A DNA stretch of 64,000 nt from an uncultured Myxococcales bacterium. GTDB taxonomy: Bacteria > Myxococcota_A > Bradymonadia > UBA7976 > VGTA01. Location: assembly GCA_937146725.1 (NCBI GenBank), contig CAKZRU010000097.1, positions 1-64,000 of the forward strand, written 5' to 3'. The translations under genes and the position numbers were made by a program. The first letter of the stretch is position 1. The number at the start of each line of letters is the position of its first letter. The notes beneath the pieces are model-generated. The model did no database searches. It saw only the letters and a program-made list of their open reading frames with translations, and was not told the DNA's origin. Positions 7,033-14,001 of this stretch are shown here, piece after piece.

Positions 7033-9702
7033 ATGATTAATGGACTTTACAAAACAAAAGAAAGCTCTTTTTTTATGGAACAAGAGATCATAGAACACCC
7101 CCCTACAGACAAAGTATCTCCACATGAACATGAAGAAAAGCCTAATGCTTTTTTTATGAAACTGGTGAGTCTTGTACTCAATTATCCCTATTTGGCATTA
7201 GGGTTTACATTGATGATAAGTTTAATTGCTGCCTTTTCGACTTATACAGCCATCAAGGTGGATAACAGCCTAGAAATGTTTACTCCTCCTCAATCGGAGG
7301 CGACCCAAAGCCTGAAAGAATATCGACGCCTATTTGGACGTGATGATGTTTTTATGGTGTCAGCAAAGGGTGATATTTTTTCGGTAGAGTTTTTGAAAAA
7401 GCTCAAAGCTCTTGAGAACGAAGTTAAGCTGATCAATGTTGACTTAAGTTCAAGCCCCAATGATTCAGAATTGTCTGTTGTTAAGTCACCTATAACAGCG
7501 AGTGAAAGTGAATTATCAAAGAATGAGCAATCATTTGATTCTGCTCTACTTGATTCTGCTCTACTTGATTCTGATTTCAACGAAGGCTTTGAGCTCGAGA
7601 GTGATGAATGGGACGCCTCTGAAGGTTCGGTGATTGAAGAAACCACATCTTTGGTATCTGTTCGGCGAACATATAATAAAGAGGGCGCTTTACAAGTAGA
7701 GCCATGGTTTGATCCCATTCCTTCACAAGATGAACTTGATCGCTTAAAGATTGAGGCTCTACAAGACCCTCTGCTTGCTGAGCGCATAGTGAACCAAAAA
7801 GCTGACTTTACGGTATTGATGATTAAAGTCATGCTCATGAGTGAAGACGATATGTTTAAGGTCTTCCAAGTTCTCAAAGGGATTGTTAAGAAATACCAGT
7901 CAGAAGATTTTAAACTCAAAGTCACTGGTACTCCCGCAGTAAACGCAGCCCTTAACGAAGTGGTTCTCAACGATTTAAGTAAGCTTCTTGTGCTCAGTGG
8001 CTTTGCTATGACCTTGGCGCTTATTTATCTATTTAGAAGCTTCTTTATGGTCGTTGGTCCCATTGTTGTCGTTTCAATTTCGGTTTTGTGGACCATGGGC
8101 TTTATGGCTTTGAGCGGTATGACTTTAAACTTACTGTCAAGCATATTACCCGCTTTTCTACTTTGTGTAGGTTTGGGTGACTCAATTCACTTACAATCAA
8201 TTTATCAGGGCTGTCGACAAGAAAACGATGACTATCGTGCATCTATCATTAAGGCGGCTGGTTTAACAGGTCCACCCATATTGTTTACTTCGTTAACGAC
8301 CATGATTGGCCTTTTTAGTTTTAAGTTTGCCAATGTCACAGCCATCCAAGAAATGGGTATGGCTGGCGGAGTTGGGGTGATCTTTGCCCTACTACATTCG
8401 TTAATTACTTTGCCCTTATTTCTACTTTGGCAAAAAGGTCAAGGAGTGGTAAAAGAAGATAAAAAAGCCCTGTCAGCATCAAATACCAACAACGATGATA
8501 AGATTGACTTTATTTTAAATAGTCTTGTCGGTTTATCCATAAATACAGCTGGGCGACGTTTAGTGTTAAGCGCGGGTATTCTGCTGTTTCTAATCAGCTT
8601 ACTCGGCTTGAGTAAATTAGAAGTATGGCATGATGATTTAGCAACATTGCCGGATGATCACCCGATTAAAAGTGCGGTTTTAGAAGTTGATCAGGAATTG
8701 GGTGGGGTAGCCAATGTTCAAATTGTGATCAAAGCCGAAGAATTAGATCGAGGTGTAAAGAACATTGAAGTCCTGCATGCCTTGGAAAAGCTTTCAAAGC
8801 ACGTACTAGACTATCAAACACCACAAGGAGAGCGTATTGTTGGCCATGCTCTTAGTTTAACCAACGTAGTGAAAGAAACCCGAAAAGCGCTCAGTGATCA
8901 AGCTAATGCATACTCGCTACCCGACTTAAGCTCAAAGACTCAAATACAGGCTCAACAAGAAGCAAGCCAGCTTCTTAGTCTTTTTGAGCTACAAAGTCCT
9001 GAGCAACTCAGAACTTTATCCACAATCGATCTCAAAGCCTCTCATTTAACGTTACAAGTCAAATGGCAAGAGGCCACTAGCTATGCAGGACTCATTGAGC
9101 ATATAAATATTGGGATTCATAAGTATTTTGAACCTTTACAAAAGCAAGGCTTAGAATTAAGGCCCACCGGCGGAGTGTATTTAGCATATACGATTATTTC
9201 CTCACTCTTAGATGACTTAATTAAAAGCTTTAGTGCTGCCTTTTTAGTCATTACTTTTTTGATGGTTTTAATGCTCAAGGAACTCAAACTCGGCTTGTTA
9301 GCGATGATTCCTAACTTATTTCCCATTTTGCTTATGATCGGCACCTTGGGCTTAATTGGGATTCCACTTGATCTTAATAACCTTTTAATCGCTTCGATCG
9401 CATTGGGGATTGCGGTGGATGATACCATTCATCTGTTGCATCACTTTAAGGCTTCGTATGTTCTTCATGGTGATCGAGAGTTAGCTATTGCTGACTCAAT
9501 TAAGCATGCAGGTCGCGCGATGCTTAGTACAAGTATTTTGCTCTGCATCGGCTTTAGTATGCATATGTTTGCAAGCACAGCGGCTGTTCAGCGCTTTGGA
9601 GTGATTATTGGCGCAACTGTGATGGTCGCTTTTGTGGTGGACTTACTGATTTGCCCAGCGATTCTAAGAATTGCATATCCAGCCCATAGTACTAAGGTAT
9701 GA
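7033..9702 (+). CDS. RND-superfamily exporter (HAE3/MMPL type)
   Basis: 889 aa, the usual size for HAE3 proteins that move lipids or hydrophobic compounds across the inner membrane using the proton gradient. Seen: first helix at about 47-70, large periplasmic loop, a five-to-six helix bundle ending each half, and the paired motifs 'GLGDSIHLQ' and 'AVDDTIHLLHH' in equivalent helices. The N-terminal 45 residues are acidic and cytoplasmic. The first loop contains a small in-frame 15-bp tandem duplication (7537-7566, residues SALLD twice) inside an acidic Ser-rich stretch (about 145-215) that is an insertion relative to simpler family members. Start ATG 7033; ATG 7075 is possible and neither has a strong ribosome site. 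Convergent with truA. Confidence 0.9.
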   Translation: MINGLYKTKESSFFMEQEIIEHPPTDKVSPHEHEEKPNAFFMKLVSLVLNYPYLALGFTLMISLIAAFSTYTAIKVDNSLEMFTPPQSEATQSLKEYRRLFGRDDVFMVSAKGDIFSVEFLKKLKALENEVKLINVDLSSSPNDSELSVVKSPITASESELSKNEQSFDSALLDSALLDSDFNEGFELESDEWDASEGSVIEETTSLVSVRRTYNKEGALQVEPWFDPIPSQDELDRLKIEALQDPLLAERIVNQKADFTVLMIKVMLMSEDDMFKVFQVLKGIVKKYQSEDFKLKVTGTPAVNAALNEVVLNDLSKLLVLSGFAMTLALIYLFRSFFMVVGPIVVVSISVLWTMGFMALSGMTLNLLSSILPAFLLCVGLGDSIHLQSIYQGCRQENDDYRASIIKAAGLTGPPILFTSLTTMIGLFSFKFANVTAIQEMGMAGGVGVIFALLHSLITLPLFLLWQKGQGVVKEDKKALSASNTNNDDKIDFILNSLVGLSINTAGRRLVLSAGILLFLISLLGLSKLEVWHDDLATLPDDHPIKSAVLEVDQELGGVANVQIVIKAEELDRGVKNIEVLHALEKLSKHVLDYQTPQGERIVGHALSLTNVVKETRKALSDQANAYSLPDLSSKTQIQAQQEASQLLSLFELQSPEQLRTLSTIDLKASHLTLQVKWQEATSYAGLIEHINIGIHKYFEPLQKQGLELRPTGGVYLAYTIISSLLDDLIKSFSAAFLVITFLMVLMLKELKLGLLAMIPNLFPILLMIGTLGLIGIPLDLNNLLIASIALGIAVDDTIHLLHHFKASYVLHGDRELAIADSIKHAGRAMLSTSILLCIGFSMHMFASTAAVQRFGVIIGATVMVAFVVDLLICPAILRIAYPAHSTKV

Positions 9703-9756: not shown

Positions 9757-10566
9757 TTACTTCGGTGGTGTCCAAAACATTTCTTCAAGGCATAGGCCAC
9801 GGGCTGGCGCGGTAGGGCCCGCAGCTGAACGTGCTTTGGCTGAGATAATTTCGGGAATACAATCAGCTTCCCAATGACCGCGTCCGATTTCAAGTAAGGT
9901 GCCAACCAAGTTTCTGACCATCTGCTTTAAAAAACCACTGCCGGCAAAGTGAATTTCATACATAATCACGTCAGAATTAAGCTTTTTACAGGTTAGACTT
10001 GTAAGCCAAAGCGCCCTTATGCTTGTTTGATGCTGTCCATTACTCGCAGCAAAGCTTTGAAAGTCATGCTCACCATGCAAGTGAGCTAAGCCATGCATCA
10101 TAGCCTCTGTATTGAGCGGATAATGAATCCAAGTCGCAAAGCGATCAAGCATGGGGTGTCGAGAATTAGCATAATAGATGCGATAACGGTAACGCTTGCC
10201 CTCATTTACAAAGCGAGGCACAAAGCCTAAGTCGACTTCATAGGCTTGATTGACCGCAATTTGTTCAGGTAACTTTTTATTCATCGCCTTGATTAGACCT
10301 GCTAAACGCACCGGATGAGTTGTGGTAAAGGCCGCCAACTGATCTTCTGCGTGTACACCGGCATCTGTCCGACTTGCTCCATCTACTGTGATGCTTTCTT
10401 TAAGAAAGGCACTCAATTCTCGCTCAAGCGTACCTTGGATGGTTTTTTCCAACTTAGGCTGCTTCTGCCAACCATGATAGCCTGTACCATCATAGCTTAA
10501 TTTGAGCGCAATGCGACGCGGGTCTCTGTGCTTAAAGGTCAAGGGCAATCCCAAAGAAATATACAT
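9757..10566 (-). CDS. truA: tRNA pseudouridine synthase A
   Basis: Makes pseudouridine at positions 38-40 of the tRNA anticodon stem. Seen: 'RIALKLSYDGTGYHGWQ' near the N-terminus, the catalytic Asp block 'GASRTDAGVHAEDQ', 'RYRYRIYY', 'HDFQSFAA' and the C-terminal 'FLKQMVRNLVGTLLEIGRG', all in family order. ATG at 10566 gives 269 aa, the usual TruA length; an in-frame ATG at 10629 would add 21 residues not found in the family and deepen the overlap. With this start the gene overlaps the end of the upstream 577-residue gene by 35 nt, so the two are probably co-transcribed. Confidence 0.95.
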   Translation of the reverse strand: MYISLGLPLTFKHRDPRRIALKLSYDGTGYHGWQKQPKLEKTIQGTLERELSAFLKESITVDGASRTDAGVHAEDQLAAFTTTHPVRLAGLIKAMNKKLPEQIAVNQAYEVDLGFVPRFVNEGKRYRYRIYYANSRHPMLDRFATWIHYPLNTEAMMHGLAHLHGEHDFQSFAASNGQHQTSIRALWLTSLTCKKLNSDVIMYEIHFAGSGFLKQMVRNLVGTLLEIGRGHWEADCIPEIISAKARSAAGPTAPARGLCLEEMFWTPPK

Positions 10567-12265
10567 TGTTACCAAGTCTGAATGAATCGGGATCGGCAAA
10601 GTCATCAACCTGTGATGATTGATACTCAAAGGTCAGATAACTGTGATTTACCCCCGCATCTCGGTCAAAGGCCCAAGCCATTTCACGATCGAGGAAATCG
10701 AGTAAAAAGTGAGCACCAATGGTATAGAAATATCCCATTGTTCCACCGCTTGCTTCACTACTTGGCTGACCATTATCCATAAATTGTGCAACATCTCCAG
10801 CTCCATCATAAATCGTCCAACTATAATAGCTTAAACCAGCTTTGACGACCGGAACTAAGGGAAAAACTTTTTGGAACATATCAAAGCGATAGGCAGCATA
10901 AACTGAGAAAGGAATAATGGAGAGTTTGGTTGTCTCGGCGATATTGGTCACACTGAGTCCCTTACCCTCAACACTCCAATAACCAACACTACCACCAAGA
11001 GATACAGTCCCCTTGTTTTGAATGAGATGTCTTTCCATTTGGATTTGGAACATTACCGGAGATTGATCCTCAAACACTCTTTCATAGGGTCTTTGTACAC
11101 CATCTTGAGCTTGAAATTCTTCATCAATTTTTGGTTGATAGGTACCGCCCGAAAACTGAACGGTAGAGCTACGTTGACTTTGAGAGCCGGTCGGACGGGC
11201 CTCGGCTGATAAAGGACTGATTAAAAGGGCCGTTAAAGTAAGGCCGAGGATATTGACCAGGGCTTCTTTTGGGGCTTTCTTTGAAGATTTCTGATGAGAG
11301 ATCGCTCTTTTGGTGAAGATTAGAGTCAAAAGGAAGAAGAATAATGAAATTAAACCCTTGCTTGAATCCCTTTGATCACAGCCACCTCTTTCACCACCGG
11401 GATACTCGCCACTATAAACTTCGGCAAAGTCCAAAACCGAAGCCGGAGTACCGGTGGTCATGGGGCTATCTTCTGATTTATTTTCGGCATCATCATAAAC
11501 TACATAAATGACGTTGTAGAGTTGGTCATTCACCAAACCCTCAAAACGATCACCAGAACCACCGGTCACTTCTTTGCAACGAGCGTCTTCACGAGATAGA
11601 TCCTCTGCCCAAACACAGGCTTCATATTTAACCACATCTCCACCAACTTCCGGTGCATTAATCACTAAAGCTTCTTCGGCAGGAGTCACTGATGGCGCTT
11701 CATCAGGTGCTGAGGGAGGATTTAAATCTACGGAAAGTTTAAGCGCCTGAGATTCTTCCTCAATCGGGTTGAGCCCAATCAAGGGATCAGCCTCGGTTTC
11801 GGTGTAGTGAAGAAAAAAGCTAATATTCTTTTCTTCTCCTGCGATACACGGCTCATCAAATAAGTCTGCCACAGTAAATGTTGTAGATACAGTGCCCGTA
11901 TTACTTACTTGCTTTAAACAAGAGCAACCACCATCATCTAAGGCCACTTCATTACACACATCTTCATGTGAGCAAGAACTTCCTGTAGTTGCAATCAAGC
12001 GCACATGATAGTTCACGGTCAATGAAGGATTGTTATAAGTTCCACTTAGAGTGAACTCTTCATTTTGAACAACATCCTCACAGCTTTCAACATTGATGGC
12101 GACATTTGATGGAGTAATACTTAGACTTGAGACTGTATCACTTACCATTCCATCTGTACTTTCTTGAGCCCACACATTTAAAGGGGCAAAAAATCCTATT
12201 GTCATAATAGTGATGAACAATGACGGACTGAAAACTCTATGCTGTCTTAGTGCAAAACGATTCAT
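10532..12265 (-). CDS. Fused protein: anchored Fn3-like protein plus outer-membrane beta-barrel
   Basis: 577 aa in one uninterrupted frame. Part 1 (about 1-332): signal peptide ending 'LNVWA', a Cys-rich domain, an Fn3-like domain (about 185-275), then Cys296, a hydrophobic helix (GLISLFFFLLTLIF) and a basic run, exactly how a MYXO-CTERM-like anchored protein ends. Part 2 (about 334-577): a second signal-peptide-like hydrophobic stretch ending 'SAEA', then 'GGTYQPKIDEEF', 'VNHSYLTFEYQSSQVDDF' and a terminal 'YFFGIALDL', which I recognise as the MXAN_2562-type outer-membrane barrel. In Myxococcus, as I recall, the anchored protein and the barrel are separate neighbouring genes. No ATG or GTG exists at the junction for an independent second start. 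truA overlaps the 3' end. Confidence 0.8.
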   Translation of the reverse strand: MNRFALRQHRVFSPSLFITIMTIGFFAPLNVWAQESTDGMVSDTVSSLSITPSNVAINVESCEDVVQNEEFTLSGTYNNPSLTVNYHVRLIATTGSSCSHEDVCNEVALDDGGCSCLKQVSNTGTVSTTFTVADLFDEPCIAGEEKNISFFLHYTETEADPLIGLNPIEEESQALKLSVDLNPPSAPDEAPSVTPAEEALVINAPEVGGDVVKYEACVWAEDLSREDARCKEVTGGSGDRFEGLVNDQLYNVIYVVYDDAENKSEDSPMTTGTPASVLDFAEVYSGEYPGGERGGCDQRDSSKGLISLFFFLLTLIFTKRAISHQKSSKKAPKEALVNILGLTLTALLISPLSAEARPTGSQSQRSSTVQFSGGTYQPKIDEEFQAQDGVQRPYERVFEDQSPVMFQIQMERHLIQNKGTVSLGGSVGYWSVEGKGLSVTNIAETTKLSIIPFSVYAAYRFDMFQKVFPLVPVVKAGLSYYSWTIYDGAGDVAQFMDNGQPSSEASGGTMGYFYTIGAHFLLDFLDREMAWAFDRDAGVNHSYLTFEYQSSQVDDFADPDSFRLGNNVYFFGIALDL

Positions 12266-12555: not shown

Positions 12556-13119
12556 TTAGTCTAGACCAAGCTCAATCATGAGTTTTGCCAAAGCACTTGG
12601 AATAGGGATTTCAGTCTTAACATTGAGTATGATTAGCTGGTCTTGGATTTTACGACGAGCCCGTTTAGTTTCTTCTAACTCTTTTTGCACTTGAGCAACA
12701 TGCTCCGGAGGAAGAACAACAAACTCCAGATCATTGGTAACCCTATCCGAGTGCTTGGCATATTCGATCTTACGCTTCATTGCTTCATCAGATAAGCGGG
12801 GCATGACTTTAGCCCAGACTAAGATATTTCTTTGTCGTTGCTCTCTTGCAAAAAGTAGCCCATCTTTTGAAAGCAAGTCATAGACACCTGATTTGGCATT
12901 ATATTTAGCGATTAAAGTTCGTAGCTCTCGTCGTATATCAAGGTATTGTTCAACTTTAACTTGAGCTTCTGTAAAGGCCTTGAGTTGCTGATCTAGTTTT
13001 TGCATGGGTTCTGTTTCAAAAACATTGATCTTCACCATCAGTGCTTCTTTTTCTAAAGAGCTAATTTCAGCATCGACCTCATCACGCATCAGAGCTGCTT
13101 TTCTAAGATTAATTTTCAT
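12556..13119 (-). CDS. MKINLRKA-family protein, copy 2 of a tandem paralogue pair
   Basis: 187 aa, soluble, almost entirely helical with heptad-like charged stretches (about 15-85 and 115-165), no signal peptide. Paralogue of the gene at 13444-14001: shared blocks are MKINLRKA, 'AKYNAKSGVYDLL', a QRQRNI run, 'PRLSDEA', and the C-terminus 'RRKIQDQLIILNVKTEIPIP' to ELGLD. From memory this layout (short conserved N-term, 'L..AxY..R..xG...L', 'K.QDxLxxLNxxTxI') resembles small uncharacterised proteins of tailed phages; this is not verified. ATG at 13119 has only a weak ribosome site. Function unknown. The pair is separated by a 324-bp non-coding spacer, so each gene may have its own promoter. Confidence 0.75.
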   Translation of the reverse strand: MKINLRKAALMRDEVDAEISSLEKEALMVKINVFETEPMQKLDQQLKAFTEAQVKVEQYLDIRRELRTLIAKYNAKSGVYDLLSKDGLLFAREQRQRNILVWAKVMPRLSDEAMKRKIEYAKHSDRVTNDLEFVVLPPEHVAQVQKELEETKRARRKIQDQLIILNVKTEIPIPSALAKLMIELGLD

Positions 13120-13443: not shown

Positions 13444-14001
13444 TTAATCAAGTCCAAGTTCCTTAATGAGTGTAGCCACCTTCTTCGGTACTTCGATTTC
13501 GGTGGTGATATTGATGACCAGTAGCTGGTCTTTGATCTTACGACGACGACGTTTGATTGCTTCGATACGATCTTCGATAGCTGTGATTGTTTCTACCGGA
13601 AGTACATCAAGCTTGATTGATCGACTATACTCATCTGACTGAAGCAGTGACTCAAGCTGGCGATTGATTGCCTCATCTGATAGGCGAGGCTTAGAGTTAG
13701 TGACGATGTTTCTTTGACGTCGTTCTCGAGAAGCGAGCATGGCATCTTCGGCAAGTAGCTCATTGATACCAGCCTTTGCATTATATTTAGCGACTAAGGT
13801 TCTTAGTACTCGACGGGCTTCTTGATAGACTTCGACCTTAGCTTGAGCCTCCTCAAAGGCAACCAGCTGTTGTTGTACCTGTTCACAGATATTAGTTTCG
13901 AACAGATTGGGGTGGACAGTGTAGGGCACTTGGTCAAAGCGACCAATTTCATCTTGAAGTAAGTCTTGCACGATAGAGGCTTTCCTCAGATTGATCTTCA
14001 T
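13444..14001 (-). CDS. MKINLRKA-family protein, copy 1 of a tandem paralogue pair
   Basis: 185 aa; same architecture as 12556-13119, with no membrane segment. Conserved with its partner: N-terminal MKINLRKA, 'LRTLVAKYNAKAGINELLAE', RQRNI, 'PRLSDEAINRQ', 'RRRKIKDQLLVINITTEIEV' and ELGLD at the end; the middle (about 20-50 and 120-145) diverges. The spared residues suggest one helical core under selection in both copies. ATG at 14001 is preceded by AAGGA, 11 nt away. Unknown function. A phage-type ancestry is possible but there is no integrase or phage structural gene in the window. Upstream lies 352 bp of non-coding DNA. Confidence 0.75.
   Translation of the reverse strand: MKINLRKASIVQDLLQDEIGRFDQVPYTVHPNLFETNICEQVQQQLVAFEEAQAKVEVYQEARRVLRTLVAKYNAKAGINELLAEDAMLASRERRQRNIVTNSKPRLSDEAINRQLESLLQSDEYSRSIKLDVLPVETITAIEDRIEAIKRRRRKIKDQLLVINITTEIEVPKKVATLIKELGLD

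Follow-up and report, generated by a model that had tools for sequence, protein, structure and literature searches.

A single gene of an uncultured Myxococcales bacterium appears to encode a bacterial polyprotein, and we consider it likely, with a probability of roughly 85%, that its product is cut twice, at Cys296 by a myxosortase and near Ala356 by signal peptidase I. The gene occupies positions 10532..12265 of the window, by which we mean the whole 64,000-nt stretch of DNA analyzed here. It comprises 577 codons and is read in the minus direction (12265->10532), and its frame and family matches identify it as a MXAN_2561-type anchored protein joined to a MXAN_2562-type barrel. Since relatives carry the two modules as overlapping genes, and since the join has recurred with both cutting signals in place, cells probably make one chain that is then cut in two. 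A preliminary description of this DNA had given the extent of the 577-residue frame exactly, without its strand. It had also placed an anchored Fn3 protein and a barrel in that one frame, which agrees with the family matches and with the Fn3-like and barrel folds seen in an AlphaFold model.

All features of the gene lie on the minus strand. A first signal peptide (residues 1-33, 12167..12265), likely cut at VWA|QE and unstructured in the AlphaFold model, is followed by an N-terminal exported module predicted to consist of Fn3-like beta-sandwiches (residues 46-296, 11378..12130). As the preliminary description had predicted, each half matched the expected family, the first below and the second above the curated cut-off. 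Residues 46-307 matched NCBIfam MXAN_2561 (NF045522) with 79.5 bits (E 2.9e-22, cut-off 150), and by this score the N-terminal half is a divergent MXAN_2561 relative that is not filed as an equivalog. Residues 368-576 matched NCBIfam MXAN_2562 (NF040596) with 171 bits (cut-off 100), and the C-terminal half belongs to that family. A Pfam search returned a match for neither half of the 577-aa protein. The full-length AlphaFold model, built from 64 aligned sequences, had a mean pLDDT of 86 and comprised a confident Fn3-like beta-sandwich N-terminal part, helices at residues 300-324 and 335-349, and a barrel at about 367-576 with eight long strands, mostly at pLDDT >90. Foldseek matched the N-terminal part to FN3 tandems, in agreement with FN3 matches from a profile search against PDB chains, and matched the barrel to 3qrc, a barrel of the Ail type, with a TM-score of 0.63 by target. 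The model thus gives the C-terminal module (residues 367-577, 10535..11167) the eight-stranded outer-membrane beta-barrel fold of the MXAN_2562 family, its location in the membrane being predicted. Because confidence was low at the junction, the model defines no fixed arrangement of the Fn3 part relative to the barrel.

The junction between the modules contains what appear to be two processing signals placed head-to-tail. The sorting cysteine, Cys296, lies in the motif GERGGC (11378..11380) and is followed by a helix at residues 300-324 (11294..11368), which from the model and its hydrophobicity would be the anchor helix of a MYXO-CTERM-like signal. A basic loop (residues 319-334, KRAISHQKSSKKAPKE, 11264..11311), predicted to be cytoplasmic, is also predicted to serve both the anchor and a second signal peptide. 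The latter corresponds to residues 336-356 (11198..11260; helix 335-349 in the model) and, as read from the sequence, has the basic n-region, hydrophobic core and AxA site of a Sec/SPI signal peptide (KRAISHQKSSKKAPKEALVNILGLTLTALLISPLSAEA|R). This hydrophobic leader closes with SAEA|RP ahead of the barrel, which makes cleavage after Ala356 likely. The window protein therefore has the tripartite anatomy of MYXO-CTERM, namely Cys296, helix 300-324 and a K/R-rich loop, in an internal and not a C-terminal position. At an E-value limit of 10, TIGR03901 (MYXO-CTERM, cut-off 20 bits) did not match the window protein, and a family scan of the source genome yielded no TIGR03901 match above cut-off. 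As the window protein misses the cut-offs of both TIGR03901 and MXAN_2561, our claim is that the signal works like MYXO-CTERM, not that it is a member of that family.

The barrel family (MXAN_2562) was found in 53 of the 57 genomes of the class and in 275 of the 379 sampled genomes of the phylum. We classified 148 Myxococcota loci having both modules, 46 of which were fused and 102 split. Separate genes in related genomes had been anticipated in the preliminary description, and they nearly always overlap by 4 nt: this was the exact overlap in 87/102 split pairs (ATGA 56, GTGA 29, TTGA 2). Fused frames 71% and 53% identical to the window protein occur in a genome of the same genus and one of the same family, respectively, and three single-contig genomes (G020, G041 and G047) also carry fused homologues. 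Both states were seen again in a second, named genome collection, which partly repeats genomes of the first and which contributed the extra fused loci L197, L207, L213 and L239. No relative came up when contigs were searched with the window protein by itself; with an alignment of fused relatives as the query, 62 loci were obtained. In split pairs of one family (f34, including L123 and L150), the anchored protein carries a Cys-rich motif, EQCE...CG..GFC..C, and the barrels have a long extension at the N-terminus but no clear adjoining signal peptide.

These distributions bear on whether the window gene could be an assembly or sequencing error joining two adjacent genes. The draft genome that contains the window has 194 contigs, and where two genes overlap at NTGA, an indel of 1 nt could bring them into one frame. 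However, the fusion is common to independent relatives that have no remaining start codon or ribosome-binding site for the second gene, and single-contig genomes are fused too. Decay of the start signals is not what a one-base assembly error would produce, and we give this explanation almost no weight. The frameshift or missed indel that the preliminary description had named as a possible cause can thus be set aside.

The loss of start signals also bears on the idea that two proteins arise without any cutting, with the ribosome initiating in frame immediately upstream of the second signal peptide, in which case the fusion would amount to a missing stop codon. This idea is consistent with an ancestral state of two genes with an overlapping start, and with the fused locus L171, in which an ATG directly precedes the second signal peptide after a long low-complexity linker; L171 is possibly a recent or merely apparent fusion. 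However, a Shine-Dalgarno-like match lies ahead of 83/92 second-gene starts at -4 or -1 in the split state, whereas an ATG or GTG with a Shine-Dalgarno sequence was present at only 2/46 fused junctions. The window gene has none, its junction containing neither ATG nor GTG and a single TTG that lies inside the first helix. Internal initiation is therefore very unlikely. Since fused junctions are almost devoid of such starts, one chain would be translated, and the sequences support a single translation product from the fused gene.

The two signals have been retained in all fused homologues. The order Cys, hydrophobic segment, basic loop and second hydrophobic segment was found in 46/46 fused proteins, with a mean of 5.9 K+R and 0.2 D+E in the basic loop. 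The mid-protein sorting signal and the hydrophobic leader before the barrel that the preliminary description had pointed out are therefore a shared feature of the 46 fused loci among the 148 classified. A strict AxA motif followed the second hydrophobic segment in 41/46 proteins by script and in 44/46 by eye, the script sometimes having chosen the first helix over the second (L004, L152 and L156), and a relaxed rule was satisfied in 46/46. Because AxA appeared in 33% of these Ala-rich regions when their sequences were shuffled, the site alone is weak evidence, and we take its retention across independent fusions to carry the weight. In the homologues L021 and L028, both from single-contig genomes, the internal MYXO-CTERM scored above the TIGR03901 cut-off. 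Another group of fusions (L023, L040, L046-L050, L116, L137, L158, L163, L197, L207, L213 and L239) has a CFI-box-type internal anchor (CFIATAAYGS...) and a longer multi-helix segment in place of MYXO-CTERM; the CFI-box-CTERM domain scored above cut-off in L049, L116, L137 and L158.

To estimate how often the fusion arose, a gene tree of both modules was used. Parsimony required at least 17 changes between the fused and split states, compared with 39.5 for shuffled labels, and 15 when branches under 80 support were collapsed. An irreversible split-to-fused model fitted best (lnL -51.80, versus -54.44 for equal rates and -59.87 for irreversible fused-to-split), with the split state at the root. 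The tree is a midpoint-rooted gene tree, its sampling is uneven and many of its genomes are drafts, so that the number of fusions is approximate; we estimate from it that the join arose repeatedly, about 15 times or more. Between two congeners, the window junction is 41% identical, compared with 75-76% in the modules, and so it appears to evolve as a signal peptide does. dS between these congeners is saturated, hence no dN/dS ratio is given.

Retention of the junction speaks against two further explanations. In one, the chain would stay uncut and behave like an autotransporter, the Fn3 passenger being displayed by its own C-terminal barrel. The passenger-then-barrel order and the C-terminal position of an 8-strand barrel fit this arrangement, but the two long hydrophobic stretches flanking a basic loop, present in 46/46, would leave such a chain stuck in the inner membrane, and in 102 relatives each of these modules is a protein of its own; we regard the arrangement as highly improbable. 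In the other, only the barrel would be released, by signal peptidase I, with the myxosortase skipping the internal anchor and the Fn3 module held in the inner membrane by the helix hairpin. In its favor, MrtP-type processing of internal tags is so far putative, and the window tag misses the TIGR03901 model. However, conservation of the Cys in all 46 fused homologues over about 15 or more independent fusions, together with the internal tags above the TIGR03901 cut-off in two single-contig genomes, makes release of the barrel alone unlikely. We therefore favor two cuts. The link from the second hydrophobic segment to the first barrel strand is about 10 residues, which is too short to span from the inner to the outer membrane, so that at least the second cut would be almost unavoidable if the outer membrane is where the barrel inserts. 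Of the two mechanisms raised in the preliminary description, an inner anchor with the barrel delivered in cis and processing into two parts, this short link and the signals kept in all fused homologues argue for the latter.

The source genome encodes a protein that scores as the myxosortase MrtP (NF040674; 383 bits, cut-off 250), an assignment made by model score only. The myxosortase core was above cut-off in 54/57 genomes of the class. MrtX was considered as an alternative identity and rejected, as the same protein reached 102 bits against a cut-off of 180. In M. xanthus, Cys-dependent cleavage of MYXO-CTERM proteins by MrtX was demonstrated experimentally, MrtX was sufficient in E. coli, and C-terminal tags function even mid-protein according to the authors (PMC11980579).

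We propose that SecYEG would thread the whole chain, the first signal peptide would be removed, and the Fn3 module would fold outside the inner membrane. Helix 300-324 would then stop transfer, leaving the basic loop in the cytoplasm, and helix 336-349 would re-start export and bring the barrel out into the periplasm. Cleavage after Ala356 by signal peptidase I would release the barrel to BAM, while MrtP would cut at Cys296, which is probably lipidated, and leave the Fn3 protein lipid-anchored for surface export. Residues 297-356 would be a leftover hairpin that is discarded. The fusion may thereby take over from the translational coupling of the ancestral NTGA-overlapping pair and fix the partners at 1:1. 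With moderate confidence, we extend this proposal to the phylum: Myxococcota may repeatedly turn a translationally coupled pair, a surface-anchored protein and its barrel partner, into a dual-protease polyprotein, in which an internal intramembrane-protease sorting tag lies head-to-tail with an internal signal peptide and a single translocation event brings two partners to the outer membrane in constant 1:1 proportion.

To our knowledge, bacteria seldom make cellular polyproteins that are processed into separate envelope proteins. In Bradyrhizobium, the FbcH cytochrome b/c1 precursor is a single chain from which cleavage at an internal signal sequence yields two envelope proteins; FbcH is unrelated to the window protein and has neither a sorting cysteine nor an outer-membrane barrel. 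The nearest likeness by family is the MXAN_2561/MXAN_2562 pair (NF045522/NF040596), which has the same two modules in the same order and truA adjoining in many loci. Most of these relatives are split, NTGA-overlapping genes, whereas the window has one frame with both processing signals inside. Our literature search found no paper mentioning MXAN_2561 or MXAN_2562. By architecture, the window protein resembles MXAN_5598 of Myxococcus xanthus, in which an adhesin-like part and an internal MYXO-CTERM are followed by an outer-membrane barrel and OmpA domains (Guo, Haft and Wall, PMC11980579). In the authors' view, genes may have fused here and the N-terminal part would be processed; they regard internal motifs as rare (PMC11980579). 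The polyprotein idea thus has one published precedent, which differs in that the barrel is accompanied by OmpA domains and in that it was reported as a rare single case. The preliminary description had called the arrangement unusual, and this has to be tempered given its recurrence in Myxococcota and the internal MYXO-CTERM already in print. New relative to MXAN_5598 are the different family and the finding that a single ancestral overlapping pair has fused independently many times. The retention of both signals in every fusion, the CFI-box as a second type of sorting signal and the loss of the internal start are also new here. TraA/TraB of M. xanthus, encoded by overlapping genes, likewise combine a MYXO-CTERM surface protein with a partner (PMC11980579), but they are separate genes with different domains and a kin-recognition function. 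Recurrent fusions at the same place are a natural experiment on two points: the ability of a myxosortase to cut a tag located away from the C-terminus, and the ability of signal peptidase I to process a second signal peptide lying behind a stop-transfer helix. Their recurrence also implies that the two products would act as partners in a fixed ratio, and annotators should avoid reading such fusions as single multi-domain proteins.

The frame downstream of the fused gene, at 9757..10629 on the minus strand, is truA, encoding tRNA pseudouridine synthase (Pfam PF01416), and its true start is probably inside 10532-10629. In many related loci, spread over several families of the phylum, truA again lies directly downstream of the pair, placing a housekeeping RNA-modification gene beside an envelope pair. 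Two adjoining paralogues of 187 and 185 aa, both starting with MKINLRKA, lie at 12556-13119 and 13444-14001 on the minus strand of the window; a Pfam search gave no match for the first. An 889-aa MMPL/Patched-type transporter at 7033-9702 is convergent with truA and the fused gene.
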